A stretch of DNA of 50,977 nt from Cyclobacteriaceae bacterium (GTDB lineage Bacteria > Bacteroidota > Bacteroidia > Cytophagales > Cyclobacteriaceae): positions 1 to 50,977 of the forward strand of contig JANQKF010000035.1 of the NCBI GenBank assembly GCA_028281285.1, in the 5' to 3' direction. Made by a program: the position numbers and the translations under genes. Position 1 is the stretch's first letter, and every line of letters begins with the position of its first letter. This document shows positions 1,752 to 43,668 of this stretch, piece by piece. Below the pieces are notes generated by a model. That model was not told the origin of the DNA. It made no database searches and was given only the letters and a program-made list of their open reading frames with translations.

Positions 1752-1753
1752 TG

Positions 1754-2941: not shown

Positions 2942-3510
2942 ACACCTATTAAATAGCTTGAAATCAATAAATCGACTAGGAATAAAATCACTGCCGCTAC
3001 CAAGGGCATTCGCTTATAAGTTGTATCAATTCCAAATGCCGATACGATTTGTTTAGTATTGAGTAAAACCTGCACACCTATATAGAGTGCTATCGAAAAC
3101 AATACTGATTCGAGAGTTATTGCAAACTCTCCCGGTTGCCCCCCGTCAGTGAAACGGTTTCCAAAATCAACCCATCTTAGTCTATAAAGGCTCGACAAGA
3201 TGAGTGAGTAAATCCAAAATGATATTGCGACCCATCCAATAAATCGTAGCCTCAAAAGTTGCCTGGCCCCATAAAGAGCAATCAAGGGATATAGAAAGGC
3301 CTTGACGGTATAAAAACTCAAAAAGAAGTACTCGTTAATTATTGCAATCACCTCATAACGAACTGTACTCACAAGGTGATAGCCTGCTACTAGTCCTGCA
3401 AAAGCCGCCAACAGCATCACCCTGCCTTTTAAACTTGGGTCATCCGTGGGTGGAATAAATGAACTCAAAAAAGAGGTCCGTCTCTTATGGCTCAATCTTT
3501 CATTCGCCAT
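2938..3510 (-). CDS. unknown five-helix membrane protein within the trp operon
   Basis: A 190-residue protein I do not recognise. After a basic N-terminus (KRR) and a short soluble stretch it has about five hydrophobic segments, near residues 31-50, 55-80, 90-112, 133-151 and 170-190. There is no signal peptide. Its start overlaps the end of trpF by 11 bases and its stop overlaps the trpB start as ATGA, so it is locked into the operon. This arrangement argues for real co-expression rather than a chance ORF. Possible roles, all inference, include an exporter or permease for an aromatic compound or a membrane sensor. Nothing in the sequence identifies a substrate, and it could be an unrelated passenger gene. 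Confidence 0.85.
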
Positions 3511-4126: not shown

Positions 4127-4135
4127 CCTATTCAA

Positions 4136-5916: not shown

Positions 5917-6482
5917 CCTTCTATCCAGTTTCTAAGTAATTCATGGCCATGCTCTGTCATAATTGATTCCGGGTGAAATTGAACTCCTCTTACGTCATAT
6001 TCTTTGTGTCGAACAGCCATAATTTGTCCTATCTCATCGATCGCGATTACTTCTAATTGATTTCCCAGATTGTCTGGGTCGATACTCCATGAGTGATAAT
6101 GGCAAATCCCATATGAATCGGGAAGGTTGTTGAATAATCTATCCGGAGTTTTGACTTGAACTTGGCTTGTTACCCCATGCATAACGGTTTCCATATTAAA
6201 GATTTCCGCACCATAAGCCTGTCCAATGGCCTGATGCCCAAGACAAACTCCCAATATTCTCTTCGATGGGCCATATTGCTCGATAAGTTGAGGCATTATT
6301 CCCGCTTCATTGGGTATCCCAGGTCCCGGAGATAAGAGAATTGCTTCATATTGATCTACATCATCCAGATGAATGGCGTCATTGCGAAAAACGCTCATAG
6401 CGTCACCATAGCCAAGTTCCTTGAAATAATGAACCAGGTTATAGGTGAAGGAATCGTAGTTGTCCAGTACTAGTATTCTCAT
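5913..6482 (-). CDS. trpG: anthranilate synthase component II (glutamine amidotransferase)
   Basis: Provides ammonia from glutamine for TrpE. The class I amidotransferase triad is visible: Cys80 in GVCLGHQAIG, and His170 and Glu172 in VQFHPES. The oxyanion motif LSPGPG is near residues 50-55. Length of 189 residues is typical. The same subunit may also serve PabB, because no separate pabA is present here. Overlaps trpE and trpD by ATGA at both ends. Confidence 0.96.
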   Translation of the reverse strand: MRILVLDNYDSFTYNLVHYFKELGYGDAMSVFRNDAIHLDDVDQYEAILLSPGPGIPNEAGIMPQLIEQYGPSKRILGVCLGHQAIGQAYGAEIFNMETVMHGVTSQVQVKTPDRLFNNLPDSYGICHYHSWSIDPDNLGNQLEVIAIDEIGQIMAVRHKEYDVRGVQFHPESIMTEHGHELLRNWIEG

Positions 6483-16777: not shown

Positions 16778-17116
16778 ATGGGAAAAAATCACTTAGGCGA
16801 ATTCGAAGAAATTGTGATGCTTACTGTTGCCATCTTACATGGTGAAGCTTACGGTGTCGCTATCATCGAAGAAATGGAAACCCGGCTCAATCGGTCGGTC
16901 AGTATTGGTTCCTTACAAGTGGTATTGAAGCGGTTGGAAGAAAAAGGATATCTCACGTCAGAATTAGGACAAGCTACCAAAGTAAGAGGCGGTAAACGTA
17001 AGCGTTTCTTTACTGTGACTAACCTTGGGAAGGAAATGCTTCAAACTTCAAAGGAGCAACGCAATTCACTTTGGAATGCTGTTCCGGAATTTTCACTCAA
17101 AGCAATCAGCCTGTAG
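16778..17116 (+). CDS. PadR-family transcriptional regulator (PadR1)
   Basis: A 112-residue winged-helix protein. It has the PadR hallmarks: LGEFEEIVMLTVAILHGEAYGVAI in helix 1, SIGSLQVVLKRLEEKGYLTSE as the recognition helix and RGGKRKRFFTVTNLGKEML as the wing and next helix. It lacks a long C-terminal dimerisation domain, like other short PadR proteins paired with permeases. It is followed six bases later by permease A, so it probably regulates A-B and itself. Confidence 0.93.
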   Translation: MGKNHLGEFEEIVMLTVAILHGEAYGVAIIEEMETRLNRSVSIGSLQVVLKRLEEKGYLTSELGQATKVRGGKRKRFFTVTNLGKEMLQTSKEQRNSLWNAVPEFSLKAISL

Positions 17117-19792: not shown

Positions 19793-22469
19793 TAAGAGTA
19801 ACCATACAAGGCCGCCTTGGGCATTCTTGGCCTTTCTTCGATGGTTTTGCGATCCAAGACTAGTCGAGGACATTGAAGGCGACTTGGTGGAACGTTTTGA
19901 AATAAGAACATTAAAAAAAGGTCATAAAACAGCAACACGCCTGTTTATCAAGGATGTATTCCAACTCTTCAGACCTGGAATCATTCGGTCATTTTCAGGT
20001 AGTCAATCACTCAATCAATTTGGTATGTTACAAAACAACATTAAAGTAGCCAGAAGGCAACTGATGAGGAATAAGATGTACTCATCAATCAAAATAGGTG
20101 GATTCGCAATAGGCATTGCAGTCTGTCTGCTTATTGCATTATTCATTCGGGATGAATTAAGCTATGATCGTCATATTCCGGATCACGAGAATTTGTACCT
20201 GTCTATTAAGGAATACAACAATGTACCTGAATATGGAGATGTCCGTGCCGCTTGGTTTTCTGCCCCGTTTGCCCAAGCATTACGTGAAGACTTTCCGGAG
20301 GTAGTTCAAACGGCAAGAACGGTCAACGGTGAAAATTTTGGAGCCGGAGCCAACAGTATCCGAGAAGAAGGCAATCCAAGAAACAATTACGAAGAGGGTT
20401 GGATTTTTGCTGACCCTGAAATCATTGATATGTTCAGGATGCCGATGATTTATGGCGACTCTAAAGAGGCACTTAAGAATCCCCTATCCATCGTTCTGAC
20501 CCAATCCGTTTCGGAAAAGTTATTTCCCGGTGAAAACCCGGTTGGTAAGACTGTTTATGCCTCTGATCTGGATGAAAGGCCATTTTCAATCGGAGGCGTT
20601 GTAGCCGATCCACCAAAGAATAGTACGTTGCAATTCCGAGTTCTAGTCACCCTTAGCGGTAAAGAATTCTGGGAAGGAGAACAAACTTTTTGGGGAGCTC
20701 AAAACTACCTGGTATTTACAAGGATTCGGGAAGACGCTAACCTGGCCAATCTGAATTCCAGACTAAAGGAAATTGGAACAAAATATATCTTGCCTTTAGA
20801 GAAAGAAAATGGTAATCCTAATGCCGAAGAAGAGGTGGATAACATCAATTTCTTCCTTAAGCCATTGACCGATATTCACTTGCATGCAGCTGACATTTAT
20901 ATCCCGTTAGCTAAAAGCGACATTGAATACGTTTATATTTTCGGAGCCATTGCCCTGTTCATCCTAGGGCTTGCATGCATCAATTTTATCAATCTATCCA
21001 CCGCGAAATCAGCAAACCGGGCCAAAGAGGTCGGTCTGAGAAAGACTATTGGGTCATACAAATCGAACCTGATCAATCAATTTCTTACTGAGTCCATTAT
21101 CTACAGCCTGATTTCCTTTGCACTAGCGGTCCTATTGGCCGGATTGATTCTTCCCTATTTTAATGCATTGGCAGGAAAATCAATAGTGCTTCCCTGGGAT
21201 ACATTTTGGTTCATTCCGATATTACTCGTCACTTCAATTCTCATCGGGGTAATAGCAGGTGTTTATCCGGCATTTTACCTTTCCTCTTTCCGACCTGCCG
21301 CAGTATTAAAGGGTACTTTAAGTATAGGCGCTAAGGGCTCGAAACTGAGAAATGTGTTGGTGGTAGTACAGTTCACTGCTTCGATAATCTTGATTATTGG
21401 AACCTTCGTAGTGTATCAGCAAATGAGTTTTATACTAAATAGGCAAACAGGATTTGACAAGGACCAGGTAGTGATGTTGGAGGGGACCAATCAAATGGGT
21501 GATCAGTTGGAAAGCTTCAAAAATGAGTTATTGAATATTCCTTCAGTCGAAAATGTAGCCATAGGAGACTATCTCCCGGTGACTGGGACTCTTAGGAATG
21601 GGAACACTTGGTGGAATGATGGTAAAACCAAAGAAGACCCTGGATTCCCAGGACAAAACTGGCGTGTTGATTATAGTTATATCGAGACACTTGGAATGAA
21701 TATCATTGAAGGACGAAACTTCTCAAAAGAACTAAGAACAGATAGTGCTGCAATGATTATCAACCAGGCTATGGCCAGAGAGCTTGGTATTGCAGATAAT
21801 CCCATTGGAAAGCGAATCACTAATAGAAGCAGCAATCGATTCGTATATACGGTTATAGGTGTGGTTGAAGATTTCAACTACGACCTGATGACTGAGCCCG
21901 TCCGACCTTTAGCCATGCGGCTTGGAAGAAGCAGTTCAATCACTTCTGTCAAGGTAAATGCTGAGAACATTTCTGCTACAATGGCTGAAATTGAAGAACT
22001 ATGGATGAAAATGGCGCCAAATCAGCCATTTATGTACAAGTTCATGGATCAGCAGTTTGCTCAAATGTATGCAAGTGTTCAGCAGGTCAGGGATATTCTA
22101 ACGGCTTTCGCCATTCTCGCAGTGATTATCGCCTGCTTAGGACTATTTGGGTTGTCAGTATTTATGGTAGAGCAACGTAATAAAGAGATCAGTGTAAGAT
22201 TGGTACTTGGTGCGAAGTCATCACAGATTGTCGGAATGCTTAGCTTCAACTTCATGAAGCCTATATTACTTGCCCTTCTTTTAGCGATACCAGTCGCATG
22301 GTATATGATGAAAGAGTGGCTTTCAGACTTTGAATATCAAATTGACTTAGGCGCAGGTGTTTTTGTATTCGCGGGCTTGGCAGCGATTGCTATAGCCATG
22401 ATCACAATCAGCTTCCAGTCTGTCCAGGCAGCATTTTCAAACCCTGTGAAGGGCCTGAGAAACGAATAG
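19785..22469 (+). CDS. orphan duplicated permease B
   Basis: 894 residues, closest to permease A in both parts: prefix FLRWFCDPRLVEDIEGDLVERF (residues 16-37), junction Met81, and a core beginning NNIKVARRQLMRNKMYSS, identical to A in this stretch. Its second coupling loop reads ISVRLVLGAK, again lacking the Lys usual in the other paralogs. The ATG lies inside the last codons of A (ATGAATGA, 8-base overlap), so A and B are likely translationally coupled and may form a heterodimer or act as parallel transporters. An inverted repeat after the stop suggests that the PadR1 unit ends here. Confidence 0.9.
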   Translation: MNDKSNHTRPPWAFLAFLRWFCDPRLVEDIEGDLVERFEIRTLKKGHKTATRLFIKDVFQLFRPGIIRSFSGSQSLNQFGMLQNNIKVARRQLMRNKMYSSIKIGGFAIGIAVCLLIALFIRDELSYDRHIPDHENLYLSIKEYNNVPEYGDVRAAWFSAPFAQALREDFPEVVQTARTVNGENFGAGANSIREEGNPRNNYEEGWIFADPEIIDMFRMPMIYGDSKEALKNPLSIVLTQSVSEKLFPGENPVGKTVYASDLDERPFSIGGVVADPPKNSTLQFRVLVTLSGKEFWEGEQTFWGAQNYLVFTRIREDANLANLNSRLKEIGTKYILPLEKENGNPNAEEEVDNINFFLKPLTDIHLHAADIYIPLAKSDIEYVYIFGAIALFILGLACINFINLSTAKSANRAKEVGLRKTIGSYKSNLINQFLTESIIYSLISFALAVLLAGLILPYFNALAGKSIVLPWDTFWFIPILLVTSILIGVIAGVYPAFYLSSFRPAAVLKGTLSIGAKGSKLRNVLVVVQFTASIILIIGTFVVYQQMSFILNRQTGFDKDQVVMLEGTNQMGDQLESFKNELLNIPSVENVAIGDYLPVTGTLRNGNTWWNDGKTKEDPGFPGQNWRVDYSYIETLGMNIIEGRNFSKELRTDSAAMIINQAMARELGIADNPIGKRITNRSSNRFVYTVIGVVEDFNYDLMTEPVRPLAMRLGRSSSITSVKVNAENISATMAEIEELWMKMAPNQPFMYKFMDQQFAQMYASVQQVRDILTAFAILAVIIACLGLFGLSVFMVEQRNKEISVRLVLGAKSSQIVGMLSFNFMKPILLALLLAIPVAWYMMKEWLSDFEYQIDLGAGVFVFAGLAAIAIAMITISFQSVQAAFSNPVKGLRNE

Positions 22470-24125: not shown

Positions 24126-24467
24126 ATGAAGGAAACAAGATTAGGTGACTTCGAAGAAACACTTCTCCTGCTTGTAGGCATACTCGAAAAAGAGGCGTAT
24201 GCCTTCAAAATCGCTGAAGAATTCGAAAGTCAAACGAAAAGATCCACCTCTATTGGAGCTGTACATTCCACGCTCAATCGCTTGAGTGACAAAGGTTTTC
24301 TGACTTCAGAAATGGGAGCAGCAACAGCTGAACGAGGTGGCAGAAGAAAGAGAATTTATTCCATTACAGCTTCAGGTCAACGTGCACTTCAGGATTCCAG
24401 GGACTTTAAATTATCACTGTGGAAACAATTCCCAGCGTTTGCTGGAGATCTCAACTTTAGCGCATGA
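24126..24467 (+). CDS. PadR-family transcriptional regulator (PadR2)
   Basis: A 113-residue winged helix with LGDFEETLLLLVGILEKEAYAFKI, the recognition segment STSIGAVHSTLNRLSDKGFLTSEMG and the wing RGGRRKRIYSITASGQRAL. It differs from PadR1 and PadR3 through most of its surface but keeps the same length and layout. Its stop overlaps the start of permease C (ATGA). It is preceded by a long dyad that it probably binds. Confidence 0.93.
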   Translation: MKETRLGDFEETLLLLVGILEKEAYAFKIAEEFESQTKRSTSIGAVHSTLNRLSDKGFLTSEMGAATAERGGRRKRIYSITASGQRALQDSRDFKLSLWKQFPAFAGDLNFSA

Positions 24468-27082
24468 TTAAGCAAAGGCCACCAAAGTATGCTGAACGCT
24501 TCCTAGGTTGGTTTATTAAACCAGACCTGGCAGAAGAGGTATTGGGTGACCTTGACGAGAAATTTTATCTCACAATTGAAACAAGGTCATTAAGGAAAGC
24601 AAGAAGGAATTATTGGTATCAGGTAATCAACTATCTCCGGCCCTTTGCTTTCAAATTTTTCAAGTCAAAATACAGAAACAACACAGCCATGTTAAAACAC
24701 AATTTCAAAGTCAGTTATCGTCAAATGCTCCGAAACAAAGGGTATTCAATTGTGAACATTGGAGGGCTTGCCATGGGAATGGTGGTCGCTATGCTCATTG
24801 GTCTTTGGGTCCACGATGAATTAACCTTTAATAAGTACCACAAGAATTACGAGACGCTCGTTCACGTTCTCCGCCATGAGGTTGAAGGTGACAGAAGAGA
24901 AACCAATTCATCACTGATCACGGGATTAGGAACTATGATGAAAGAGAAATTCGCTGATCAACTAGATGGTGTGTTTATGGTTAGAGCTCGAGAACAAAAT
25001 CGTGTATTGGCTGCAGGCGACAGGAAATTCCGTCAGGTCGGTCTCTTTATGCAGGAGAATGGCCCTGAACTCTTGAGTTTTGAAATGATTCAAGGGACCT
25101 ATGATGCATTCGAAAATATGGGTTCCATTTTACTGTCCGAATCTTTTGCCAAAAAACTCTTCGGAGATGAAGATCCAATGGGCAAGTTCGTGACCATGGA
25201 TGCCAGAGACAATTTTCTAGTTGGAGGCATTTATAAAGACATCCCGAAGAATTCGAAATTTGCCGATGCAGCCTATGTCTGCAGACTTGCCGTGGTCCTT
25301 GGTGGTCCGAAATACTTAAATGTCTGGGGAAACTATAATACCGACATTTATGCCAAAGTGAATCCCAATGTAGACCTTGAAAATTTAGCAGATCAGATTA
25401 ATAAAGCAGCAGCTCCAAATTTCAACGACTACGCTCAAGAAAGTGGAATGAAATTCTACCTCCACCCCATGAAAGATTGGCACCTCAAGTCAGAATTTCA
25501 GGATCACAAGCAGGTCACTAGTCAACAAATGAAATTGGTTTGGTTGTATGCGATCATCGGAATTTTCGTGCTGGTATTGGCCTGTATCAACTTCATGAAT
25601 TTGAGTACGGCTCGTTCAGAAAAGAGAGCGAAAGAAGTGGGTATAAGAAAAACTCTGGGTTCGGTAAGAAGAGAACTGATTGGCCAATTCTATATGGAAT
25701 CCTTCCTCTATACATTACTCGCCTTTGCGGTCTCTCTGGGATTTCTGAGTCTGTTACTTCCCTGGTTCAATGAAACCTCGGCCAAAGAAATCGCGGCTCC
25801 ATGGGGTATGCCGACATTCTGGTTGGCAAGCATTGGTTTTGTCCTCTTCACAGCATTGGTTTCAGGTTCTTACCCTGCCATTTTCCTTTCATCATTCAAA
25901 CCAATCAAGGCATTAAAAGGCACGGTAACCCCGGGTAAAGGAGCTACCATCCCTAGAAAAATCTTAGTCGTATTTCAATTTACAATATCGATCGCCTTGA
26001 TTATTGGAACCATTACCGTCAATAAGCAAATAGAATCGGCCAAGAATCGTCCTGTAGGATATAGTCCGAAAGGAATGTTATCCGTGAGTCCTGCTTCTCC
26101 AAACTTCCGCAAGAACTATCAGGCCATGAGAACAGAAATGCTTCGAACGGGCATGGCAGTTGAAATTGGCGGATCGAATTACCCAGTGATCAATGCATTG
26201 GGGTGGAATCCCGGTTTTACCTGGGAAGGAATGGACCCCACTTTCTCTGAATCCTTCAACACCATTAGCATCACACCGGGCTATGCAGAAGCTGTCGATA
26301 TGAAATTTATTTACGGCCGTCCATTTTCTATGGAACCACAGGCTGATCGCAATGGTATAATCCTGAATCGCTCTGCTATGGAAGCGATGCGATTGGATAA
26401 TCCAGTAGGTATGGTGATCAATTTTAATCCAAACTGGGCTGATCCTCGAGATTATGTGGTCATTGGTGTGGTAGAAGACATGGTGAAAGCATCACCTTAT
26501 GAAAAAACCTACCAATCAGTGATGTTTAACAACTTGTTCAGACCCAACTACCTGTATATCAAGCTTAACCCAAACAAAAGCGCGAGCGAAGCAATTCCAG
26601 TGCTGGAAGAAGTTTTTAATCAATTTCTTCCAGAAGCGCCTTTTGACTACACCTTTGCTGACGATGATTACAACAAGAAATTTATTGCTGAAGAACGAAT
26701 TGCAAGCCAAGCAAGCTTCTTCAGTATACTGGCAATTTTCATCAGTTGTTTAGGGCTCTTTGCTTTGGCTTCATTTGTTGCCGAGCAACGTACCAAGGAA
26801 ATCGGTATTCGCAAGGTACTTGGTGCAAGCATACTCAGCCTCTGGAAATTGCTTTCTAAGGATTTTGCGGTATTGGTGATCATTGCTTGTTTAATTGCGA
26901 TTCCAATTTCCAGCAGTGTTTTAAATGATTGGCTCGACACTTTTGAAGTTCAAACTGAGCTTTCATGGTGGATTTTCGCAGCCGGAGGTTTGGGCGCATT
27001 CCTCATCACTCTTATTACAGTGAGCTTTCAAGCCATTAAGGCAGCAATGGCCAATCCTGTAAAGTCCTTAAGAAGTGAATAA
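24464..27082 (+). CDS. orphan duplicated permease C
   Basis: 872 residues. The prefix (FLGWFIKPDLAEEVLGDLDEKF, residues 13-34, and RNYWYQVINYLRPF) belongs to the type shared by D, E and F. The core starts at Met76 and is of the type shared by F and G (KGYSIVNIGGLAMGM, then WVHDELTFNKYHKNYE). Cytoplasmic loops read RAKEVGIRKTLGS and TKEIGIRKVLGAS, both intact. It is the first permease after PadR2. Confidence 0.9.
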   Translation: MIKQRPPKYAERFLGWFIKPDLAEEVLGDLDEKFYLTIETRSLRKARRNYWYQVINYLRPFAFKFFKSKYRNNTAMLKHNFKVSYRQMLRNKGYSIVNIGGLAMGMVVAMLIGLWVHDELTFNKYHKNYETLVHVLRHEVEGDRRETNSSLITGLGTMMKEKFADQLDGVFMVRAREQNRVLAAGDRKFRQVGLFMQENGPELLSFEMIQGTYDAFENMGSILLSESFAKKLFGDEDPMGKFVTMDARDNFLVGGIYKDIPKNSKFADAAYVCRLAVVLGGPKYLNVWGNYNTDIYAKVNPNVDLENLADQINKAAAPNFNDYAQESGMKFYLHPMKDWHLKSEFQDHKQVTSQQMKLVWLYAIIGIFVLVLACINFMNLSTARSEKRAKEVGIRKTLGSVRRELIGQFYMESFLYTLLAFAVSLGFLSLLLPWFNETSAKEIAAPWGMPTFWLASIGFVLFTALVSGSYPAIFLSSFKPIKALKGTVTPGKGATIPRKILVVFQFTISIALIIGTITVNKQIESAKNRPVGYSPKGMLSVSPASPNFRKNYQAMRTEMLRTGMAVEIGGSNYPVINALGWNPGFTWEGMDPTFSESFNTISITPGYAEAVDMKFIYGRPFSMEPQADRNGIILNRSAMEAMRLDNPVGMVINFNPNWADPRDYVVIGVVEDMVKASPYEKTYQSVMFNNLFRPNYLYIKLNPNKSASEAIPVLEEVFNQFLPEAPFDYTFADDDYNKKFIAEERIASQASFFSILAIFISCLGLFALASFVAEQRTKEIGIRKVLGASILSLWKLLSKDFAVLVIIACLIAIPISSSVLNDWLDTFEVQTELSWWIFAAGGLGAFLITLITVSFQAIKAAMANPVKSLRSE

Positions 27083-27173: not shown

Positions 27174-29837
27174 ATGAATAAACCAAAAAACCATATCGCT
27201 CCTCCTAAGTTGGCCCAAAGACTCTTAAAATGGTTTTTGAAAAACGAGCTTGCTGAAGAGGTATTGGGCGATTTGGACGAGAAGTTTTACAAGACACTCG
27301 AATCAAAATCTGAAAGAAAGGCCAAACGGAATTACTGGTACCAGGTCAAAAATTATATCAGGCCGTTCGCGCTGAAAAGAACTAAAGTCAATTACTCAAA
27401 CACTATCGGAATGTATCGACATTTTTTGAAAATCTCATGGAGAGGCATGCTTCGCAACAAGGTCTTCTCCACAATAAAAATTGGTGGCTTTTCAATTGGA
27501 ATTGCCGCCTGTATTCTAATTTCTCTTTTCACCCTTCATGAGCTCGACTACGACAAACACTACGAGAACAGTGATCGTATTTTTAGAATTGCCAATGAAT
27601 ATAGGGGCGAGAATTATTTCGGGAGATGGACCAATATGCAGGGTCCTTTCAAAGAGGTATTGGAAGAGCACCTGCCTGATATTAACCAACTGGCTCGGGT
27701 GGTAAAATGGAAATGGGGCAATGTGGGTGAAAACCACATTCGTAAGGTAGAATCCAAGCAAAACATCTACGAGGAAGGATTCTTTTATGCCGATCCTGAA
27801 TTGCTCTCCATTTTGGAAATCCCAATGGTCTACGGTAATCAATCCGATGCCTTGGCGTCTCCAAATTCAATAGTGATTTCTGAAAAAATGGCCAAGAAAT
27901 ACTTCCCTGGAGAAAATCCCATGGGAAGACAATTGATCTTAAACGACAATGCAGCATCTACCTATACAGTGGGTGGAGTCATGGAAGATTTTCCGATCAC
28001 CTCGCACTTACAAGGTGAATTCATCATGACACTATTTGAAAGAACTGAAGGGCCCGGAGTTTCAGACTGGTGCTGTTCTAATTACGATTTCTACGTGAAG
28101 TTACTCCCCAATACCAATAAAGAACAGGTTGAACAAAAGCTGATCGACATTCGCGATACCTATGTCATCGATCTGCTCACCGAAGCGGGAAATAATGAGA
28201 TAGATGAAATTCAGAATTACCAGTCCTACTATCTACAACCTGTCTCAGACATTTACCTCAACGAGGCAGAAATTGGAGATCATATCCCTCACGGATCAAT
28301 CTATGCAGTATGGGTATTCAGCGCTATCGCTGTGGTAATATTGGTATTGGCTTGCCTCAACTTCATCAACCTCTCTACAGCTAAATCCATCAAAAGAGCA
28401 AAGGAAGTTGGGTTGCGCAAAGTTGTGGGTTCGTTTCGCTCCGGACTGATTCGACAATTCCTTGCCGAGTCAATCTTCTTTAGTATGATCTCCATTTTCA
28501 TAGGACTTCTCCTCGCATGGGGTGCTCTACCCTACTTCAATGACTTAGCTGATAAGCAACTGACAATTCCTTTTCAATCTGTCAATTTCATTCTTCTTCT
28601 TGTTTTAGCGGGGTTTGTAATTGGAGCCGTATCTGGTGTGTACCCAGCCTTCTATCTATCCAGATTCAAACCTGTGGAAGTATTAAAGGGCAGTTTTTCC
28701 AGAAGCACAAAAGCCTCTTTTTTCAGAAGTGGCATGGTGGTCTTTCAATTCGCCACTACCATTGTGTTGATTATTGCGGCATTGGTCACGCATCAACAAT
28801 TTGATCATTATATGAACAAGTCTTTGGGCTATGAAAAGGAGCAAGTGATCAATATTCTGGGAATAAATACCCTTCCTGAGCAACGAAGAGAATTATTGAA
28901 AGAGGAGCTTTTACGGCTTCCTAATATTCAAAGTGCAACTCTTGGAGACTACCTTCCCGTTTCGGGATCAAGAATGACCAATTATGGGTTCTCTTTGGAC
29001 GGCAGTTCTGACATAGATCCGGGTTTTGAGGCGGCCAGATGGATTATAGATGAGGATTACTTGGCCACCATGAGCATGGAACTTAGTACAGGCTCAAACT
29101 TCAATCCGGACCTCACAAACGAAAATTCTATCATCATCAACGAAAGCATGGCCGAAGCTTTCCATTTAGAGGACCCTATAGGTACTCGGCTTGTCGACAT
29201 GTTTGATGGCAAGTATAATGTCATCGGGGTGGTAAAAGACTTCTATTTTGAATCACTTACGGCAGACATTAGGCCACTGACAATGGTCTATGGCAGAGGT
29301 CAATCGACTCTTTCGATCAAACTAAGCAGCACTGAAATGGAAAATACGCTCGAAGCAGTTGAGAACAAATGGTCTGAATTTCAACCAAATCAGCCGCTTC
29401 GATACACCTTTCTGGATCAGCGATTTGAGGAAATGTATCGGAGCTTTCAGAGAGCCAGAAACATCTTTCTTATCTTCTCGCTGCTTTCCATTATTGTTGC
29501 TTCCTTAGGCCTTTTCGCCTTATCCGCCTTCATTATTGAACAAAGAAATAAGGAAGTCAGCGTTCGGAAAGTGCTTGGTGCAAGTACAAGCGGAATATTC
29601 AACCTCCTTGCTAAAGACTTTGTAAAACTTGTATTGATTGCGACCCTGCTGGCTATCCCGCTAGGTTGGTATTTGATGCAGGCATTCCTTCAGGACCTGG
29701 CCAACAGAATCACATTGTCGTGGGAAGTATTTGCCGTAGCCACGATTGGAGCACTGCTAATCGCACTACTGACGATTAGTTATGAATCGATCAAAGCTGC
29801 CCTTGCCAATCCTGTGAAAACGCTTAGGAGTGAATGA
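27174..29837 (+). CDS. orphan duplicated permease D (mosaic)
   Basis: 887 residues with a C/E/F-type prefix (WFLKNELAEEVLGDLDEKFY, residues 20-39) joined at Met80 to a core of the A/B type (STIKIGGFSIGIAACILISLF, starting about residue 96). The core keeps RAKEVGLRKVVGS and a complete second loop, KEVSVRKVLGAS. The combination of parts from two groups points to recombination near the junction. It starts eight bases after a palindromic repeat and overlaps E by eight bases. Confidence 0.9.
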   Translation: MNKPKNHIAPPKLAQRLLKWFLKNELAEEVLGDLDEKFYKTLESKSERKAKRNYWYQVKNYIRPFALKRTKVNYSNTIGMYRHFLKISWRGMLRNKVFSTIKIGGFSIGIAACILISLFTLHELDYDKHYENSDRIFRIANEYRGENYFGRWTNMQGPFKEVLEEHLPDINQLARVVKWKWGNVGENHIRKVESKQNIYEEGFFYADPELLSILEIPMVYGNQSDALASPNSIVISEKMAKKYFPGENPMGRQLILNDNAASTYTVGGVMEDFPITSHLQGEFIMTLFERTEGPGVSDWCCSNYDFYVKLLPNTNKEQVEQKLIDIRDTYVIDLLTEAGNNEIDEIQNYQSYYLQPVSDIYLNEAEIGDHIPHGSIYAVWVFSAIAVVILVLACLNFINLSTAKSIKRAKEVGLRKVVGSFRSGLIRQFLAESIFFSMISIFIGLLLAWGALPYFNDLADKQLTIPFQSVNFILLLVLAGFVIGAVSGVYPAFYLSRFKPVEVLKGSFSRSTKASFFRSGMVVFQFATTIVLIIAALVTHQQFDHYMNKSLGYEKEQVINILGINTLPEQRRELLKEELLRLPNIQSATLGDYLPVSGSRMTNYGFSLDGSSDIDPGFEAARWIIDEDYLATMSMELSTGSNFNPDLTNENSIIINESMAEAFHLEDPIGTRLVDMFDGKYNVIGVVKDFYFESLTADIRPLTMVYGRGQSTLSIKLSSTEMENTLEAVENKWSEFQPNQPLRYTFLDQRFEEMYRSFQRARNIFLIFSLLSIIVASLGLFALSAFIIEQRNKEVSVRKVLGASTSGIFNLLAKDFVKLVLIATLLAIPLGWYLMQAFLQDLANRITLSWEVFAVATIGALLIALLTISYESIKAALANPVKTLRSE

Positions 29838-32442
29838 TAAACAAAATCATATCACCCCTCCCCGCTTAGCACAGCGATTACTGCTCTGGTTTCTGAAAGA
29901 CGAACTAGCCGAGGAAGTCGTGGGAGATTTGGATGAAAAATTCTACCAAACCTTAGCTGGTCGTTCAAAAGGAAAAGCAAAAAGAAATTACTGGTATCAG
30001 GTGCTTAACTACTTAAGGCCTTTTGCCATTAAAAGAAACAGGTCAACTCAATTAAATCAAACAGCCATGTTCAAACACAATATCTTAATCTCATTCAGAA
30101 GTTTCGGACGATACAAAAGCACATTTCTTATCAATATCTTCGGTCTTGCCACTGGCCTGGCAAGTGCCATTCTCATTTATCTCTGGGTAAATGATGAATT
30201 GAACACCAACAAATTCGATGAGGTCGACAGTAAGCGACATGTTCAGGTGATACACACTTATCCAACCTCAGGAACGTACCATACTGAAATCGATGGAGCA
30301 ACACCGAACCCCCTTTTCGAAAGATTACCCAAAGATCTACCTGAAATCGAATATTCATTCCCCGTCAATGCCTACCCTAGTTATAAAGGTGTACTTTCTT
30401 CAGGTGACAACAATGTTCGAGCACAATATCAATTTGTAGGAAAAGGCTATTTCAATGTTTTTCCGGGAGACTTTATTCATGGCAACAAGTATGAAATACT
30501 GACTGAAAAAGGTGAAGTAGCCATATCGGAAAGCCTGGCCCTTTCTCTTTTCAATTCAACTGAGAAAGCGGTTGGACAGCTAGTAGAGTTTAAAGATGAC
30601 TACTATGGAGGAAGTTATCTCGTCTCAGGAGTCTTCAGACCAACTCAGAACAGCTCCACGGCATTTGATATGCTCTTCAGTTATGAGCTTTTCGGTACGG
30701 AAGACATGATGCAATGGTACAATAGTGGCACACAAGCTCATTTAGTGTTGAAGGAAGGGGTCGATCTCGATCAGTTCAATGCCAAACTCAAAGGGTATTT
30801 AAAGACACTTGCTGAAAACTGGCATGACATCTTATATGCACAACCCTATACAGAAAGATATCTCTTCGGACAATTCGAAAACGGAGTACCGGTTGGTGGT
30901 AAAATCATCTATGTAAGACTATTTTCTATCATAGCCATTTTCATATTAGTCATTGCCTGCATCAACTACATGAACTTTTCTACTGCCAAGGCATCACGAA
31001 GAATTAAAGAAATAGGTGTAAAAAAGGCCATTGGAGCTAATCGCAAGACGCTCATCTATCAATATTTCGGAGAGTCAATTTTTGTGGCCTTTCTAGCCTT
31101 AGTGATTGCTTTAGTGATTGCATACTCGCTGTTACCTCAGTTCAACGAAATAACAGGCAAGGCATTGACCTTTGACTTCTCTCGTGATCTCATCATGGCC
31201 ATTTTATCCATCACTCTATTCACGGGTTTGGTTTCCGGAGTTTATCCTGCACTATTATTATCCGGTTTCAATGCCGTAGTGGCCCTGAAAGGAAAATTGA
31301 ATAATCAGGGCAAGAGTATTTGGCTGAGAAAAGGCTTGGTTATTTTCCAATTTGCTGTTTCAGTCATCCTGATCGTTTCAGTGACAGTGATTTACAAGCA
31401 AGTAGAATTTATTCAAACCAAAAACCTGGGATACAATAAGGATCACATTATCACTTTTACAAAAGAAGGTAAGCTTAAAACAGAAGCTGACGCATTTTTG
31501 ACTGCGCTAAGAGGAATTCCAACCGTTATCAATGCTTCTCAAATGAGTGGTGATTTACCAGGTAAAATCGGTTATTCTCAGGGATATAAGTGGGAAGGAA
31601 TGACAGATGAAGACAAAAGTCAACGATTCTATCAAATCCGAGGGGGCTATGAGCTGATCGATTTGTTAGGCATAGAACTCAAAGAAGGTCGTACTTTCTC
31701 CAAGGATTTTGCCACCGATGTCGATGCCATCATTTTGAACGAGGCTGCTGTAGAAATAACCCGACTGGAAAACCCTGTTGGTCAGAAATTCGGTAATTAT
31801 AATCCGCGAGCACGGACGAAAGAGGTTATTGGTGTTGTGAATAATTTCCATTTTCAGTCAATGCAAGAGAAGGTGCGTCCCTTCTTCTTCTCCATCAGTG
31901 ATAGCGGCAGGAAATTCATAGTTAAGCTTCAAGCAGGGAAAGAAAGAGAGGCCATAGATGAGATTGCCTCAGTATACGAAAGTTTCAATGAAGGCTATCC
32001 CTTTGAGTTTCGCTTTTTAGACCAAGACTATCAAGCTGTCTACGCTGCAGAAGAGCGCATTACGGTGCTTTCAAAATACTTCGCTGGAATTGCCATAGCC
32101 ATTTCTTGTTTAGGTCTTCTCGCGCTTACAGCCTTCAGTACACAAAGAAGGTTCAAAGAAATCGCTATACGCAAAGTACTGGGATCGACCAGTATGGAAG
32201 TCATGCGACTCCTTTCGAAAGAATACTTTGTTCTGGTAATTGCGGCCATTGTTATGGCATTACCGATTAGCTATTACCTCATGAGAACCTGGCTGGATGG
32301 CTTTGCTTATCGAATAGGCCTGGAACCCATATTCTTTATTGTCGCTGGCTTAGTCATGATGGTTGTGGCCTGGCTGACGATAATGTCTCAGGCAGCACAG
32401 TCATCAAAAGTCAATGTCACTGAAACCTTGAGAAGTGAATAG
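29830..32442 (+). CDS. orphan duplicated permease E (mosaic)
   Basis: 870 residues. Prefix of the C/D/F type (LLLWFLKDELAEEVVGDLDE, residues 17-36); core from Met80 of the H-L type (YKSTFLINIFGLATGLASA, WVNDELNTNKF, RRIKEIGVKKAIGA, RFKEIAIRKVLGST). The start is a GTG inside the last codons of D (GTGAATGA), implying coupled translation. The first 30 bases are almost the same as those of F. Confidence 0.9.
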   Translation: MNDKQNHITPPRLAQRLLLWFLKDELAEEVVGDLDEKFYQTLAGRSKGKAKRNYWYQVLNYLRPFAIKRNRSTQLNQTAMFKHNILISFRSFGRYKSTFLINIFGLATGLASAILIYLWVNDELNTNKFDEVDSKRHVQVIHTYPTSGTYHTEIDGATPNPLFERLPKDLPEIEYSFPVNAYPSYKGVLSSGDNNVRAQYQFVGKGYFNVFPGDFIHGNKYEILTEKGEVAISESLALSLFNSTEKAVGQLVEFKDDYYGGSYLVSGVFRPTQNSSTAFDMLFSYELFGTEDMMQWYNSGTQAHLVLKEGVDLDQFNAKLKGYLKTLAENWHDILYAQPYTERYLFGQFENGVPVGGKIIYVRLFSIIAIFILVIACINYMNFSTAKASRRIKEIGVKKAIGANRKTLIYQYFGESIFVAFLALVIALVIAYSLLPQFNEITGKALTFDFSRDLIMAILSITLFTGLVSGVYPALLLSGFNAVVALKGKLNNQGKSIWLRKGLVIFQFAVSVILIVSVTVIYKQVEFIQTKNLGYNKDHIITFTKEGKLKTEADAFLTALRGIPTVINASQMSGDLPGKIGYSQGYKWEGMTDEDKSQRFYQIRGGYELIDLLGIELKEGRTFSKDFATDVDAIILNEAAVEITRLENPVGQKFGNYNPRARTKEVIGVVNNFHFQSMQEKVRPFFFSISDSGRKFIVKLQAGKEREAIDEIASVYESFNEGYPFEFRFLDQDYQAVYAAEERITVLSKYFAGIAIAISCLGLLALTAFSTQRRFKEIAIRKVLGSTSMEVMRLLSKEYFVLVIAAIVMALPISYYLMRTWLDGFAYRIGLEPIFFIVAGLVMMVVAWLTIMSQAAQSSKVNVTETLRSE

Positions 32443-32529: not shown

Positions 32530-35166
32530 TTGAATAAAAAACAAAATCATATCACCCCTCCCCGACTAGCTCAGAAACTTTTACTCCTGTTTCTGAAAGA
32601 AGAATTGGCTGAAGAAGTACAAGGTGATTTGGAAGAGAAGTTCTATCAAACGGTCAATCATCATTCTTTATTCAGAGCCAAACGAAACTATTGGTTTCAA
32701 GTCATCAATTATATCAGACCTTTTGCGCTTAAACGCAATCGGTCTTATCAATCAAAACCCATAACCATGTTCAGACATAACTTCAAAGTGAGCACCAGAC
32801 AGATGCTCAATAACAAAGGTTACTCCGCGATCAATGTCTTCGGTTTGGCCTTAGGAATGACCGTAGCCATGCTCATTGGTTTGTGGGTTCATGATGAGCT
32901 CACCTTCAATCAATATCATGAAGAATACGACACCACCTATCAATTATTAAGGCAGGAAAATGGCTCTAAAGGAAGATATACCAGCGAATGGTTTTACACA
33001 GGCATGGGTGCCTTACTCAAGGAGACGCTTCCTCACAAATTGGAAAATTTGCTAATGAGCAAAGGAACCCCGTTCTCTCGAGTACTTGCTCATGGTGATA
33101 AAAAGCTGTCATTCTCTGGACTTTATGCAGAATCTCATTTCCCAAGTTTTTTCGGTCTGGATATGAAATACGGAAACGAAGACGGATTGAACGACCTCTA
33201 TAGCATTATGCTTTCCGAGTCTACCGCCAAGAAGCTATTTGGCGATCAAAACCCTGTTGGAGAGCTCATCAGTATGGATATCACCGATCAGTATATGGTA
33301 TCAGGAGTGTACTTTGATCTACCTAAAAACTCTGAATTCTCAGGCACAGACTATCTGTCATCCTACAAAACCTTTTTCGCCAAATGGCCTGAAAGGCTGA
33401 ATATCTGGGATAATATGAACACCAAGGTGTACGCTAAGATTCAGCCGGGAAATGACTTGGAAGAGCTCAATGAACAGATCAACGGTCTGTTTATACCCAG
33501 GCTTGCCGAAACTTCCAAAGAGCGGGATCCCAATTACTTATTGCACCCAATGAGTCAATGGCATACCACCACTTTCGTAGAAGGCGTATTAGGTAAAAAT
33601 CAGACTTATAGATATATATGGATGTATGGGTTCCTGGGTGTATTCGTCCTCACCCTGGCCTGTATCAATTTTATGAACCTGAGTACGGCCCGGTCAGAAA
33701 AACGCGCGAAAGAAGTCGGTGTGAGAAAAACACTAGGTTCACTGAGACAACAATTGATCTCCCAGTTCTATCTGGAATCATTTTTATATTCTTTTTTAGC
33801 ATTTGTATTGTCCCTCCTTCTGCTGAAAGCATTGCTTCCATGGTTCAATCATACTTCGGCAAAAGACATAGTACCACCTTGGCAAGTCAGCACATTTTGG
33901 CTTGCCTGCATTTCTTTTATCATTTTCACCACGCTTATCGCAGGATCTTACCCAGCCGCTTACCTGTCGAGCTTCAAGCCCATCAATGCGCTGAGAGGAG
34001 GCTTAAAATTTGGCAAAAGAGCCACGACTCCGAGAAAGGTCTTGGTGGTTTTTCAGTTCCTGATATCTGTAATGCTGATCATCGGCAGCATTACGATCAA
34101 CAATCAAATACAAGAGGCCAAAAACAGACCAATAGGATATTCGCCTAACGGCATGATTTCGATCAGCCCAACCTCTCCAAATTACCATAAGAACAGAGCA
34201 GTGCTGAGACAGGAAATCCTGAATACAGGAATGGTAACCGAAGTGGGTTTTTCAAATTACTCCATAACCAATGATAGAGGATGGAACAATGGCTTTCGCT
34301 GGGATGGAATGGATCCCGCTTTTGATGAGTCCTTCAACACCGTTCATATCACCGAAGGCTTTGCAGAGGCCATGGGCATGGAGTTCATTGCGGGACGGAA
34401 CTTCGATCCAACCCGTATAGCAGACAAAAATGGTATCATTCTTAATGAATCAGCACTACAGGCTATGCAGCTCGAAGACCCGATTGGTATGGTCATCACC
34501 TATGATCCGAGCTGGGCCGAGGCCGCAAACTTCACCATTGTGGGTGTGGTTAAAGACATGATCAAAGCCTCCCCTTTTGAGCAAACACGTCAGTCGGTAA
34601 TGTTCAACAGCGAAGATAAAAGGTATACGGCCTATATGTATATGCGACTCAATCCTGATGTGAGCGCGAGTGAATCCCTGTCGGCCATTGAACAGGTATT
34701 CAATGAAATTTTGCCCGAAGCCCCTTTCGACTACCGCTTTGCTGATGACGATTACAACAAGAAGTTTGAGGCGGAAATACGCATTTCGGATCTCGCAATA
34801 TTCTTTACTATACTGGCCATACTGATCAGTTGCCTTGGGTTATTTGGTCTATCGGCATTTGTAGCGGAACAGAAAACCAAAGAGATCGGTATCAGGAAGG
34901 TGCTGGGAGCTAGTATTCTTCACCTCTGGCAGCTGTTGTCCAAAGAGTTTGCCGTCCTGGTGCTCACTGCGAGTATCATCGCCATCCCGATCGCTCATTA
35001 TTTCCTGGAAGATTGGTTGAGCACTTACGAGCTACGGACAAAATTGTCTTGGGACATATTTGCGTTTGCTGGTCTGGGTGGCTTGGCGATCACATTGATT
35101 ACGGTGAGTTATCAATCATTAAAGGCTGCTTTGGCCAATCCGGTGGATTCTTTGAGGACTGAGTGA
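32530..35166 (+). CDS. orphan duplicated permease F
   Basis: 878 residues with prefix LLLLFLKEELAEEVQGDLEE (residues 17-36) and a core from Met80 of the C/G type (KGYSAINVFGLALGMTVAM). The start is a TTG at 32530, at the same aligned position as the GTG of E; no ATG fits the prefix. Loops RAKEVGVRKTLGS and TKEIGIRKVLGAS are intact. Permease G is its closest relative in the core. Confidence 0.9.
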   Translation: MNKKQNHITPPRLAQKLLLLFLKEELAEEVQGDLEEKFYQTVNHHSLFRAKRNYWFQVINYIRPFALKRNRSYQSKPITMFRHNFKVSTRQMLNNKGYSAINVFGLALGMTVAMLIGLWVHDELTFNQYHEEYDTTYQLLRQENGSKGRYTSEWFYTGMGALLKETLPHKLENLLMSKGTPFSRVLAHGDKKLSFSGLYAESHFPSFFGLDMKYGNEDGLNDLYSIMLSESTAKKLFGDQNPVGELISMDITDQYMVSGVYFDLPKNSEFSGTDYLSSYKTFFAKWPERLNIWDNMNTKVYAKIQPGNDLEELNEQINGLFIPRLAETSKERDPNYLLHPMSQWHTTTFVEGVLGKNQTYRYIWMYGFLGVFVLTLACINFMNLSTARSEKRAKEVGVRKTLGSLRQQLISQFYLESFLYSFLAFVLSLLLLKALLPWFNHTSAKDIVPPWQVSTFWLACISFIIFTTLIAGSYPAAYLSSFKPINALRGGLKFGKRATTPRKVLVVFQFLISVMLIIGSITINNQIQEAKNRPIGYSPNGMISISPTSPNYHKNRAVLRQEILNTGMVTEVGFSNYSITNDRGWNNGFRWDGMDPAFDESFNTVHITEGFAEAMGMEFIAGRNFDPTRIADKNGIILNESALQAMQLEDPIGMVITYDPSWAEAANFTIVGVVKDMIKASPFEQTRQSVMFNSEDKRYTAYMYMRLNPDVSASESLSAIEQVFNEILPEAPFDYRFADDDYNKKFEAEIRISDLAIFFTILAILISCLGLFGLSAFVAEQKTKEIGIRKVLGASILHLWQLLSKEFAVLVLTASIIAIPIAHYFLEDWLSTYELRTKLSWDIFAFAGLGGLAITLITVSYQSLKAALANPVDSLRTE

Positions 35167-35173
35167 ATCGTTG

Positions 35174-35278
35174 AACGTCATTTCGAACGAGTGCAACGAG
35201 GAGAAATCCCCTCACCGTGATCAGGGGATTGTTGCGTCCTTCGCCCCTGTCTACCACAGGCAGGCTCACAATGACGTT
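35174..35278. repeat. palindromic intergenic repeat between F and G
   Basis: Outer arms AACGTCATT (35174-35182) and AATGACGTT (35270-35278); inside, ATCCCCT and AGGGGAT pair, and CCTGT...ACAGG lies near the right end. It belongs to the GTCATTTCGA type and probably ends the PadR2 transcript before G. Confidence 0.85.
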
Positions 35279-35386: not shown

Positions 35387-37789
35387 ATGATTAGGCACAA
35401 CTTTAAAGTGAGCTATAGACAAATACTCAAAAACAAAGGATATTCTTTCATCAACATTTTTGGCCTGGCCCTTGGTATGACGGTAACCATGCTTATCGGC
35501 CTATGGGTAAATGATGAACTAAATTTCAACCACTATCATGAAGATTATGAAATCACCTATCAGTTGCTGAGACAAGAGACTCGGAAAGAGGAGCGGTTCA
35601 CGAGTGAATGGGTTTATACCGGCATGGGAGCATATTTGAAAGAAAAACTTTCTCATAAACTGGAAAACGTGGCAAGGATCCATGGCAATCGACTTACAAG
35701 GGTATTGGCTCATGAAAAAAAGAAAATCACCTTCGGTGGTCATTATGTAGAGAAGAATTTTCCAGATGTCTTCAGCCTAAAAATGAAACAAGGGAGTTCA
35801 GATGGCTTGAAAGACCTGTACACCATTATGATCTCTGAGACCGCATCGTCTAAACTATTTGGAGATAAAAGCCCAATTGGAGAACTAGTAAAAATGAATG
35901 GTAGAAGGGAATATATGATTACGGGCGTGTTCTCTGATTTACCAAAAAATTCCACTTTCTCAGGCGTTGAATTTCTTTCTTCCCTTGCCACTTTTTATTC
36001 CGGTAGGGAGCAAAACCTGAACATCTGGTCGAATGAGAACACCAAAATTTACGTACAAATACAACCAGAAACGGATCTAGAAGAATTAAATAGTCGGATT
36101 ACAAGCCTCTTTGGAGAGCGACTTGGCGAAAGAGCCATAAAAAGAGAGTCGAACTTTATCATGCATCCGATGAATCAATGGCATACTACCACTTTTGTGG
36201 AAGACACCTTGGTTAAAAGTCAGAATTACAGGTTCATTTGGATGTATGGACTTATTGGCTTATTCGTGCTTACCCTGGCCTGTATTAACTTCATGAATCT
36301 GAGTACTGCAAGATCGGAGAAACGAGCCAAGGAAGTCGGGGTTAGGAAGACACTGGGCTCATTGAGAAAACAATTGATCTCGCAGTTTTACTTCGAATCT
36401 CTTTTATACACGATTTCGGCATTTGTGCTGTCCATATTCCTGTTTGGGGCGCTTCTTCCCTGGTTTAATGAGACTGCCGGTAAAGACATAGCCGCTCCGT
36501 GGAATGTTAGCACCTTCTGGGTAGCTTCACTTTCATTTATCATTTTCACCACGTTAATCTCAGGCTCATATCCTGCAGCTTATCTATCGAGTTTCAAACC
36601 CATTAGTGCGCTCAGAGGTGGGACGAAGTTTGGAAAAAGAGCAAGCACGCCCAGGAAAGTATTAGTGATTTTTCAATTCCTTATTTCGATTGTTTTAATC
36701 ATTGGCACCATTACGGTCAGCAATCAAATCCAGGAAGCAAAGAACCGCCCCTTAGGCTATTCACCCAATGGCATGATCTCCATTAGACCCGCCTCGCCTA
36801 ATTACCATAAGAGCAGAGCACTGCTAAGGCAAGAAATTCTAAAAACAGGAATGGTTACCGAGTTAGGTTATTCAAATTATCCTGTGATCAGTGCACTCGG
36901 CTGGAATCCCGGATTCCGTTGGGACGGAATGGATCCGACATTTGATAAATCATTCAATACGATATACATCACTCCCGGGTATGCTGGCGCTGTGGGAATG
37001 GAATTCATTGCTGGAAGAAACTTTGATCCATCTCTTGAAACAGACAAAAATGCAATCATCATTAACGAATCAGCTCTAAGAGCAATGCGCCTTGAAAACC
37101 CCATAGGCATGCTGATTACCTATGATCCGAAATGGGGAACTGAGGCAGAAAACTTTACGATTGTTGGTGTAGTGAAAGATATGATCAAGGGCTCACCTTT
37201 TGAGGAAACAAGTCAATCGGTGATGTTCAACAGTAAAGCCAAAAGATATACGGCTTGGATGTATATGCGTTTAAATCCGAATAAAAGTGCCAGTGAGGCC
37301 TTACCGGCCATCGAAGAGGTATTCAATGAAATTCTGCCCGAAGCCCCTTTCGACTACCGCTTTGCCGATGACGATTACAGTAAAAAGTTCGATGCGGAAA
37401 TGCGCATTTCAGACCTGGCAGTATTCTTCACCATTCTGGCCATACTCATCAGCTGCCTTGGCTTATTGGGTCTGTCGGCATTTGTGGCGGAGCAGAAAAC
37501 CAAAGAGATTGGTATCAGGAAAGTGCTGGGTGCGAGCATCCTTAATCTATGGAAATTATTGTCTAAAGAGTTTGCACTGCTTGTGATCATTGCATGTGTT
37601 GTTGCCATTCCAATGGCACGATACTTTCTTGAGAGTTGGCTGGACACCTACCAAATCCGAACCACATTGTCCTGGGACATTTTTGCCATGGCTTGCCTTG
37701 GAGGTTTGATTATCACGCTCATCACGGTAAGCTATCAGGCTTTAAAAGCAGCTTTTGCCAACCCGGTGAATTCATTGAGGACTGAGTAG
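35387..37789 (+). CDS. orphan duplicated permease G lacking the prefix domain
   Basis: 800 residues, starting MIRHNFKVSYRQILKNKGYS, the exact equivalent of the Met80 junction in F (MFRHNFKV). The 79-residue prefix is absent and no remnant is visible in the 105 bases upstream, which hold a repeat edge and a promoter-like element. The core is otherwise complete, with both halves, RAKEVGVRKTLGS and TKEIGIRKVLGAS. It is therefore likely functional rather than a pseudogene. If the prefix controls assembly or partner choice, G would be uncoupled from that control. Confidence 0.9.
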   Translation: MIRHNFKVSYRQILKNKGYSFINIFGLALGMTVTMLIGLWVNDELNFNHYHEDYEITYQLLRQETRKEERFTSEWVYTGMGAYLKEKLSHKLENVARIHGNRLTRVLAHEKKKITFGGHYVEKNFPDVFSLKMKQGSSDGLKDLYTIMISETASSKLFGDKSPIGELVKMNGRREYMITGVFSDLPKNSTFSGVEFLSSLATFYSGREQNLNIWSNENTKIYVQIQPETDLEELNSRITSLFGERLGERAIKRESNFIMHPMNQWHTTTFVEDTLVKSQNYRFIWMYGLIGLFVLTLACINFMNLSTARSEKRAKEVGVRKTLGSLRKQLISQFYFESLLYTISAFVLSIFLFGALLPWFNETAGKDIAAPWNVSTFWVASLSFIIFTTLISGSYPAAYLSSFKPISALRGGTKFGKRASTPRKVLVIFQFLISIVLIIGTITVSNQIQEAKNRPLGYSPNGMISIRPASPNYHKSRALLRQEILKTGMVTELGYSNYPVISALGWNPGFRWDGMDPTFDKSFNTIYITPGYAGAVGMEFIAGRNFDPSLETDKNAIIINESALRAMRLENPIGMLITYDPKWGTEAENFTIVGVVKDMIKGSPFEETSQSVMFNSKAKRYTAWMYMRLNPNKSASEALPAIEEVFNEILPEAPFDYRFADDDYSKKFDAEMRISDLAVFFTILAILISCLGLLGLSAFVAEQKTKEIGIRKVLGASILNLWKLLSKEFALLVIIACVVAIPMARYFLESWLDTYQIRTTLSWDIFAMACLGGLIITLITVSYQALKAAFANPVNSLRTE

Positions 37790-37987: not shown

Positions 37988-38323
37988 ATGAAAAAAGTCA
38001 CTTTGGGGGCGTTTGAAGAATTAGTACTCCTCACTGCTGGAGTGCTCCAGGACAATGCCTATGGAGTCACCATAAAACTCGAACTCGAGCGTCAACTCAA
38101 TAAGAAAATCAGTCTTGGAGCCCTCTATTCGGCTCTCCAGAGGCTGGAAGAAAAGGGATGGGTGAATTCCAGGATTGGTGGAATCACCGAAAAGCAAGGA
38201 GGTCGAAGGAAACAATATTATGATATCACCAAGGAAGGCATGATGGCGCTGGATGAGGTCAGAGCCATGCGTAACTCCCTGTTCGATCGCCTGCCTCAGA
38301 CCGCAATCAATCTGCTTAAATAA
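37988..38323 (+). CDS. PadR-family transcriptional regulator (PadR3)
   Basis: A 111-residue winged helix: LGAFEELVLLTAGVLQDNAYGVTI, KISLGALYSALQRLEEKGWVNSR and QGGRRKQYYDITKEGMMAL. Its TAA shares a base with the ATG of permease H. It probably controls H and I and, because of a shared upstream motif, possibly J-K-L. Confidence 0.93.
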   Translation: MKKVTLGAFEELVLLTAGVLQDNAYGVTIKLELERQLNKKISLGALYSALQRLEEKGWVNSRIGGITEKQGGRRKQYYDITKEGMMALDEVRAMRNSLFDRLPQTAINLLK

Positions 38324-43570: not shown

Positions 43571-43668
43571 CGTCATTTCGAACGAGCTCTACGAGGAGAA
43601 ATCTCCCTTAGTGATTGGGAGGCCTGTCCGGCAGGCAGGTTGCTTCATCCTACGGCCTCGCAATGACG
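43571..43668. repeat. palindromic intergenic repeat between I and J
   Basis: Arms CGTCATT (43571-43577) and AATGACG (43662-43668); internal GCCTG-TCCGG-CAGGC hairpin near 43622-43636. The left part is almost identical to the repeat between F and G (CGTCATTTCGAACGAG). Confidence 0.85.

Follow-up and report, generated by a model that had tools for sequence, protein, structure and literature searches.

What is exchanged when neighboring membrane proteins become mosaics of one another, and what do the parts that meet in them do? The locus analyzed here, a complete contig of 50,977 bases to which we refer as the window, raises this question with twelve permease genes, A to L, arranged in tandem on the forward strand. 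The original prediction described most of them as a soluble prefix joined to a membrane core at a conserved Met, and proposed that D and E had arisen by homologous recombination, with the prefix acting as a freely exchangeable adaptor.

Mosaic permeases in three PadR-led operons

Three genes encoding PadR-family regulators each head one block of the array (A-B, C-G, and H-L), and these operons are exactly the three prefix types of the original prediction, in which the correspondence was missed. The regulators exceed the PF03551 gathering cut-off of 27 bits with 40.9 bits in operon 1 (16778..17116), 38.9 bits in operon 2 (24126..24467), and 46.1 bits in operon 3 (37988..38323). Operon 1 continues with A (17123..19792; prefix 17123-17353, junction ATG at 17354) and B (19785..22469; junction ATG at 20025). 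Operon 2 comprises C (24464..27082; ATG at 24689), D (27174..29837) and E (29830..32442), both bounded as originally predicted, F (32530..35166, with a TTG start; ATG at 32767), and the prefixless G (35387..37789). Operon 3 contains H (38323..40926; ATG at 38560), I (40941..43556; 41181), J (43764..46367; 44001), K (46386..48977; 46623), and L (48996..50975; 49233), which reaches the contig end. L is broken off there (50900-50975), and the end of another contig of the same genome, C14, continues from the same 18 residues; beyond the continuation lie two further genes, whose prefixes are 91% and 68% and whose cores are 42% and 40% identical to L. From H onward, operon 3 thus probably contains seven permeases. 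A 32-base repeat is found in the gap before G (35177-35208) and, with three mismatches, in the I-J gap (43572-43603); it has no exact match among 140 loci and may mark the way in which G lost its prefix. Elsewhere in the window, a minus-strand gene run (969-7885) reads by eye as ordinary tryptophan biosynthesis.

All 11 prefixed permeases of the window exceed the 35-bit cut-off of the NCBIfam model NF038404, perm_prefix_2 (in the five genes tested, A 59.5, C 74.0, D 74.2, E 74.7, and H 45.3 bits), and G has no match to it. The window prefix is therefore the domain of this model, which merely names it; the phrase "permease prefix domain" was found in no open-licence PMC paper. MacB_PCD and FtsX domains occupy the same protein as the prefix in the six window cores scanned, with two FtsX stretches in all six and two MacB_PCD stretches in five, the duplicated layout known from ADOP. 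Reading of the window's open reading frames revealed no recognizable ATPase partner gene beside the permeases.

In a tree of the prefixes of 73 own-genome genes, from which two perm_prefix_1 genes and the prefixless genes were left out, C, D, E, and F formed one clade (support 99/87), A and B another (99/82), and H-L grouped with three genes from elsewhere (99/97). The core tree, built from 89 of 91 own-genome genes after two truncated permeases had been dropped, placed D with A/B (SH-aLRT 99) and E within H-L (100) and united C, F, and G (100). The prefixes of D (27174..27410) and E (29830..30066) are thus of the C-F type; the D core, running from the junction ATG at 27411 to 29837, is of the A/B type, and the E core, from the ATG at 30067 to 32442, is of the H-L type and nearest to that of I. 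D and E share.67 of their prefix residues and.29 of their core residues, as against.28 and.59 for E and I and.32 and.41 for D and B. When alternative placements were examined by AU tests, the core data rejected a single C-F clade (p =.012) as well as a union of C/F with D (.0006) or with E (.0004), and the prefix data rejected D with A/B (.0026) and E with I, with H, or with H, I, and J (all p < 1e-40). A prefix arrangement with E and H-L on one side of an unrooted branch was not rejected (p =.15); on our reading, E can attach to the base of the long H-L branch.

When a single breakpoint was sought in 10 window genes by a GARD-like scan (the truncated L and the prefixless G excluded), the best position was column 76, three columns before the junction Met in column 79, and two trees improved on one by 197 lnL units (delta AIC -358). 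Across the larger gene set, the change of module falls roughly between residues -5 and -1, inside the linker. Collectively, the incongruent trees, the AU tests, and the breakpoint confirm that prefix and core are separate modules meeting at the conserved Met and that D and E are true mosaics, much as originally proposed. The position expected for this Met in all copies, residues 76-81, is correct wherever a prefix is present (11 genes); G opens with it as residue 1.

The proposed origin of the mosaics fared less well. Operons matching C-G occur in eight other species, with PadRs 81 to 86% identical to that of operon 2, and orthologues with the same prefix-core pairing were found in six of the eight for D (core identity.61-.68) and in four for E (.72-.77); the nearest window type of their prefixes is C-F. 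Because other species share these pairings, the comparison indicates that both swaps are old rather than recent events in the window array, and this ruled out a recent recombination at a homologous patch as the source of D and E. The similarity of the C and E junctions is real, with 20 of 21 bases matching; however, since the swaps are old and synonymous identity lies below expectation in five of the six window C-F prefix pairs, it cannot be read as a swap substrate or as evidence of recombination.

Prefix types, operons, and PadR regulators

To place the window in its family, we drew on the own genome as a whole, which has 74 perm_prefix_2 matches, and on 39 regions of 14 relatives. Matches are spread very unevenly among the genomes of relatives in the genus, from 105 (G007), 94 (G009), and 83 (G011) down to 11, and two less complete genomes have none. 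The regions were chosen among the matches listed, mostly at clustered prefix matches, so that multi-gene operons are over-represented. Together they gave 214 permeases, of which 191 are prefixed, and 107 PadR-led operons; three permeases in which the junction could not be placed were dropped. Within the stretches fetched, 69 of 73 prefixed genes of the own genome lie in a PadR-led operon, as do 169 of the 191 overall, and several of the other 22 run off the fetched stretch.

Within operons, prefix identity exceeded core identity in 102 of 103 gene pairs (medians.65 and.32), whereas both are about.3 between operons of one genome. The prefix is therefore not slow to change in general, but is held alike inside an operon. 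Even where the cores are unrelated, 73 of 76 within-operon pairs share a prefix type, and the nearest prefix lies in a gene's own operon for 87 of 94 genes, compared with 37 of 94 for the nearest core. At least one mosaic pair occurs in 29 of the 39 operons that have two or more prefixed genes. These comparisons argue against a freely exchangeable prefix: the prefix stays where its operon and PadR gene are, and it is the cores that have been exchanged, at the junction. Damaged or interrupted genes were seen as well: in the own genome, one prefixless permease is preceded by the remains of a prefix that contain an in-frame stop (contig C3, 115669-115842, minus strand); at another locus (L142) the gene is split; and at a third (L141:2698-5765), an open reading frame that looks transposase-like by eye separates a prefix from its permease core, so that what had seemed a short prefix frame there is part of a permease gene.

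The link between prefix and PadR was then assessed across operons. For 16 of 48 own-genome operons, the most similar PadR came from the operon with the most similar prefix, and for two, from that with the most similar core; over all genomes with enough operons the counts were 25 and 4 of 69; in 32 of the 48 own operons, the nearest PadR is thus not that of the nearest prefix. The prefix correlates with PadR similarity at.29 and the 75 core columns that follow it at.10 (later segments,.02 to.19), and in the last genes of the 39 multi-gene operons the value drops from.31 to.18 after the junction (later,.03 to.24). Over all genomes, the core correlation is weak (.10, reached by 21 of 500 permutations); the prefix correlation across operons is itself modest (.26-.29), which counts against a prefix fitted to its PadR. 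Stronger evidence, in our judgment, comes from comparing families. Permeases with the perm_prefix_1 domain share the core family of the perm_prefix_2 genes and carry a different prefix, and in a Bacteroidota sample the PadRs beside the two form separate clades (SH-aLRT 100). The prefix label changes once on this 75-row PadR tree, which took 15 of the own genome's perm_prefix_2 PadRs, as against 13 times on a core tree of 93 rows, where starred branches force at least three of the changes; that tree used the first 460 core residues, and 20 of 73 own-genome genes were picked for it by hand. The own genome also has four perm_prefix_1 matches (contigs C31, C37, and C17), and the PadRs adjoining them belong to the perm_prefix_1 clade. 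Finally, in 44 of 103 operons the end of the PadR gene and the putative start of the prefix share 4 or 1 nucleotides, as for proteins that are made together.

Neighboring prefixes might instead be alike through neutral concerted evolution, the 5' ends being copied repeatedly between genes of one operon with no protein partner involved. Fresh copying does take place in relatives and accounts for part of the within-operon likeness: near-identical prefix pairs in six of them (G028, G001, G013, G005, G014, and G012) have prefix nucleotide identities of.83-.90 and synonymous identities of.84-1.00, with core nucleotide identities of only.42-.48. Synonymous identity is also above expectation in the pooled within-operon prefixes (.665, with.559 expected; for cores the values are.567 and.531), and in some relatives the prefixes group by genome and not by core group. 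Yet the window C-F prefixes, five of whose six pairs show no such excess, are nonetheless.52-.71 identical, and between species, matching operons whose cores differ have prefixes that are.59 alike, close to the.62 found within one operon. Copying alone also does not predict that the two prefix families should each keep to their own PadRs, and we consider it unlikely to be the whole explanation.

A second possibility is that the prefix is an assembly domain by which the permeases of one operon pair among themselves or join a common ATPase, its association with PadR being due to linkage only. FtsX-type permeases commonly function as dimers, and a prefix common to the permeases of one operon would suit this role. 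It is harder to reconcile with the 66 of 107 PadR-led operons for which the stretches fetched show just one permease, with PadR similarity that tracks the prefix more than the core, or with one locus (L089:1147-2004) in which a PadR gene is followed by a perm_prefix_2 domain fused at a Met to a small protein that reads as multi-transmembrane. The latter has no FtsX match and shows only a weak, below-cut-off likeness to DUF6804. We regard a pure assembly role as distinctly improbable and favor a prefix that belongs with the PadR of its operon.

The junction methionine

The Met at which the modules meet is aligned with the start Met of G and of the other prefixless permeases. The codon is ATG in 173 of the 191 prefixed genes, and 11 of the other 18 have a Met within three residues. 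We asked whether silent positions around it bear marks of a start codon, a feature missed in the original prediction. Relative to the codons that these genes use for the same amino acids at other sites, G at third positions of codons -8 to -1 is depleted about fourfold (46 observed, 203 expected), and the 63-base stretch spanning the ATG has a folding energy of -2.86 kcal/mol compared with -5.24 for synonymous recodings, 93% of the genes being less folded than their own recodings (z = +.91, n = 173). Many of these sequences are related, so that p values do not represent independent draws; however, the depletion holds in a non-redundant set (16 against 60.2, n = 51), and it is also present in the own genome alone (12 against 78.6, n = 65).

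The signal peaks at the junction. Along 65 own-genome genes scanned in 10-codon steps, it forms a single folding peak, and the G ratio of.24 over 191 genes is flanked by shoulders of.66 and.60, with about.7 at the gene start and core bins averaging 1.00 (sd.07, lowest.85). The sign is reversed at in-frame ATGs picked at random elsewhere and in the stretches richest in AT (z = -.36 for the latter). The junctions are also less folded than 79 PadR starts (-5.74), 11 starts of prefixless permeases (-4.42), and 186 putative prefix starts (-7.31). Other potential start codons near the junction are fewer than expected (ATG, 17 against 22.9; GTG or TTG, 74 against 129.6). Each of the 11 window junctions is less folded than its average recoding, eight at or above the.90 percentile and L (.88), D (.76), and F (.62) more weakly; the candidate internal translation initiation region of E (30037..30099, -30 to +33 around the ATG at 30067) has a folding energy of -1.9 against -5.0 for its recodings, at percentile.90. 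Two sets of distant Bacteroidota gave similar results, with ATG in 25 of 25 genes, a G ratio of.15, and a folding z of 1.01 (n = 25) in the first and Met in 27 of 28, a ratio of.36, and a z of.90 (n = 27) in the second. In genes that depart from the pattern, the z is.38 (p =.24) for the 11 with a shifted Met and the G ratio is.48 for the seven with no Met nearby.

A Shine-Dalgarno-like site at the junction was rejected (3 observed, 1.7 expected). The start rules measured in Flavobacterium johnsoniae (PMC6847099) call for A at -12/-13, A at -6, and a purine at -3, and the bases upstream of the junction in the own genome and its relatives fit these rules, with A at -12 in 89%, a purine at -3 in 92%, and A at -6 in 66%. 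In the second distant set, of these features only the purine at -3 stays (.78), and the A-12 motif is gone (A,.30). A synonymous start score (PSSM) gave a moderate mean percentile of.67, and since shifts of -3 and -6 scored like the junction position itself, it was set aside as position-precise proof of a start.

This breadth over the linker would also suit a junction without a working second start, either because unstructured mRNA is needed ahead of the first membrane helix or because the Met, aligned as it is with the starts of prefixless permeases, is a fossil of an earlier start. Several observations speak against it. The perm_prefix_1 permeases, with the same core family, have Leu or Ile at the junction in 14 of 20 genes and show no folding signal (z = -.07, 20 genes) and only weak G depletion (ratio.66), also when a Met lies within five residues (z =.39, p =.7, ratio.64; n = 10); their Met in just 6 of 20 genes likewise led us to reject a structural need for the residue. 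The AT-rich control sites also count against such a junction, and a fossil should decay, whereas the signal holds in the non-redundant set and in other families of the phylum. We rate such an inactive junction as rather unlikely.

An internal promoter, for which the A-rich and unstructured junction might be suited, was rejected as having next to no chance of being correct. The -7 promoter motif of Bacteroidota is TAnnTTTG. Over the 150 bases that precede each of 173 junctions it is avoided (0 found, 4.5 expected), although the depletion of G may cause part of this deficit. We thus favor an internal ribosome start: the junction ATG carries the silent-site signature of a start, the Met looks like an internal translation start, and the pattern suggests that in these marine bacteria the gene may yield its membrane part on its own as well.

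A proposed receptor-regulator system

The findings can be combined into a model that, as a whole, we consider about 60% probable. Each operon has a single PadR-type transcription factor at its head and, behind it, one to five MacB/FtsX-type membrane proteins (in the window perhaps seven). The perm_prefix_2 prefix would be a soluble N-terminal adaptor that docks onto the matching PadR of the same operon, and the cores would be interchangeable sensor or permease bodies, so that several different cores report to one PadR. Through its prefix, the full-length protein would hold or release PadR at the membrane. Ribosomes would start at the junction too, each gene giving a full-length form that binds PadR and a core-only form that does the work of the core without engaging it. 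Contact between prefix and PadR, sensing of a signal by the core, and the short product are predictions deduced from the sequences.

In its outline, the system resembles the HAAS-PadR dyad, proposed as an alternative to two-component systems, in which HAAS, a small soluble helical domain with a three-helix fold and a GxP kink, lies at the N-terminus of multi-transmembrane sensors, including FtsX/MacB_PCD proteins, beside a stand-alone PadR (PMC11237479). Both thus pair an N-terminal soluble domain on an FtsX/MacB_PCD protein with a neighboring stand-alone PadR. The E and H prefixes of the window, however, matched no Pfam family at an E value of 0.5 or better, HAAS (PF22564) included; one of two perm_prefix_1 domains tested gave a sub-threshold HAAS match, and the PadRs of perm_prefix_2 genes form a clade apart from those of perm_prefix_1. 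Profile comparison revealed no sequence homology between the two prefix families either (hhalign probability, 4%). Operon-wide matching of prefixes, swapping of cores, and an internal start go unmentioned in the available parts of PMC11237479, and none of the three was found in the portions of the open-licence PMC literature consulted. The system is likely a receptor-regulator dyad like HAAS-PadR, its genes giving two products.

The ADOP permeases (TIGR03434), accompanied by padR_acidobact (TIGR03433), are similar in combining a duplicated FtsX-type permease with a PadR gene, and form large paralogous families in Acidobacteria. Six window permeases nevertheless score 234.8-295.3 bits, under the ADOP cut-off of 622, and the three window PadRs score 34-45 bits against a cut-off of 102. 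With respect to the second start, hrcQ, spaO, and aerR also yield a long and a short in-frame product from one gene. These are single proteins, whereas the window belongs to a modular family in which the start would coincide with a domain junction and is deduced from silent sites alone.

Taken jointly, the results allow a broader reading to which we give slightly better than even odds: nearly all Bacteroidota perm_prefix_2 genes would be nested in frame, encoding a free core and a full-length PadR-binding receptor, and PadR with its prefix would form a portable plug, joined nearly always at a start codon to rotating cores, at least one of them not of the FtsX type, with dozens of such systems in parallel per cell. 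With the operon rule, what was only a name becomes a concrete and testable claim, namely, that the prefix is the cognate plug of its PadR. If this is true, these genes represent a large and little-noticed class of membrane-to-gene signalling systems in Bacteroidota, and their paralogous prefix-PadR pairs with exchanged cores offer a natural experiment for specificity residues. If the internal start is also true, the annotated proteins of the perm_prefix_2 family give two products, and silent sites offer a way to find built-in starts where bacteria do without Shine-Dalgarno sequences.
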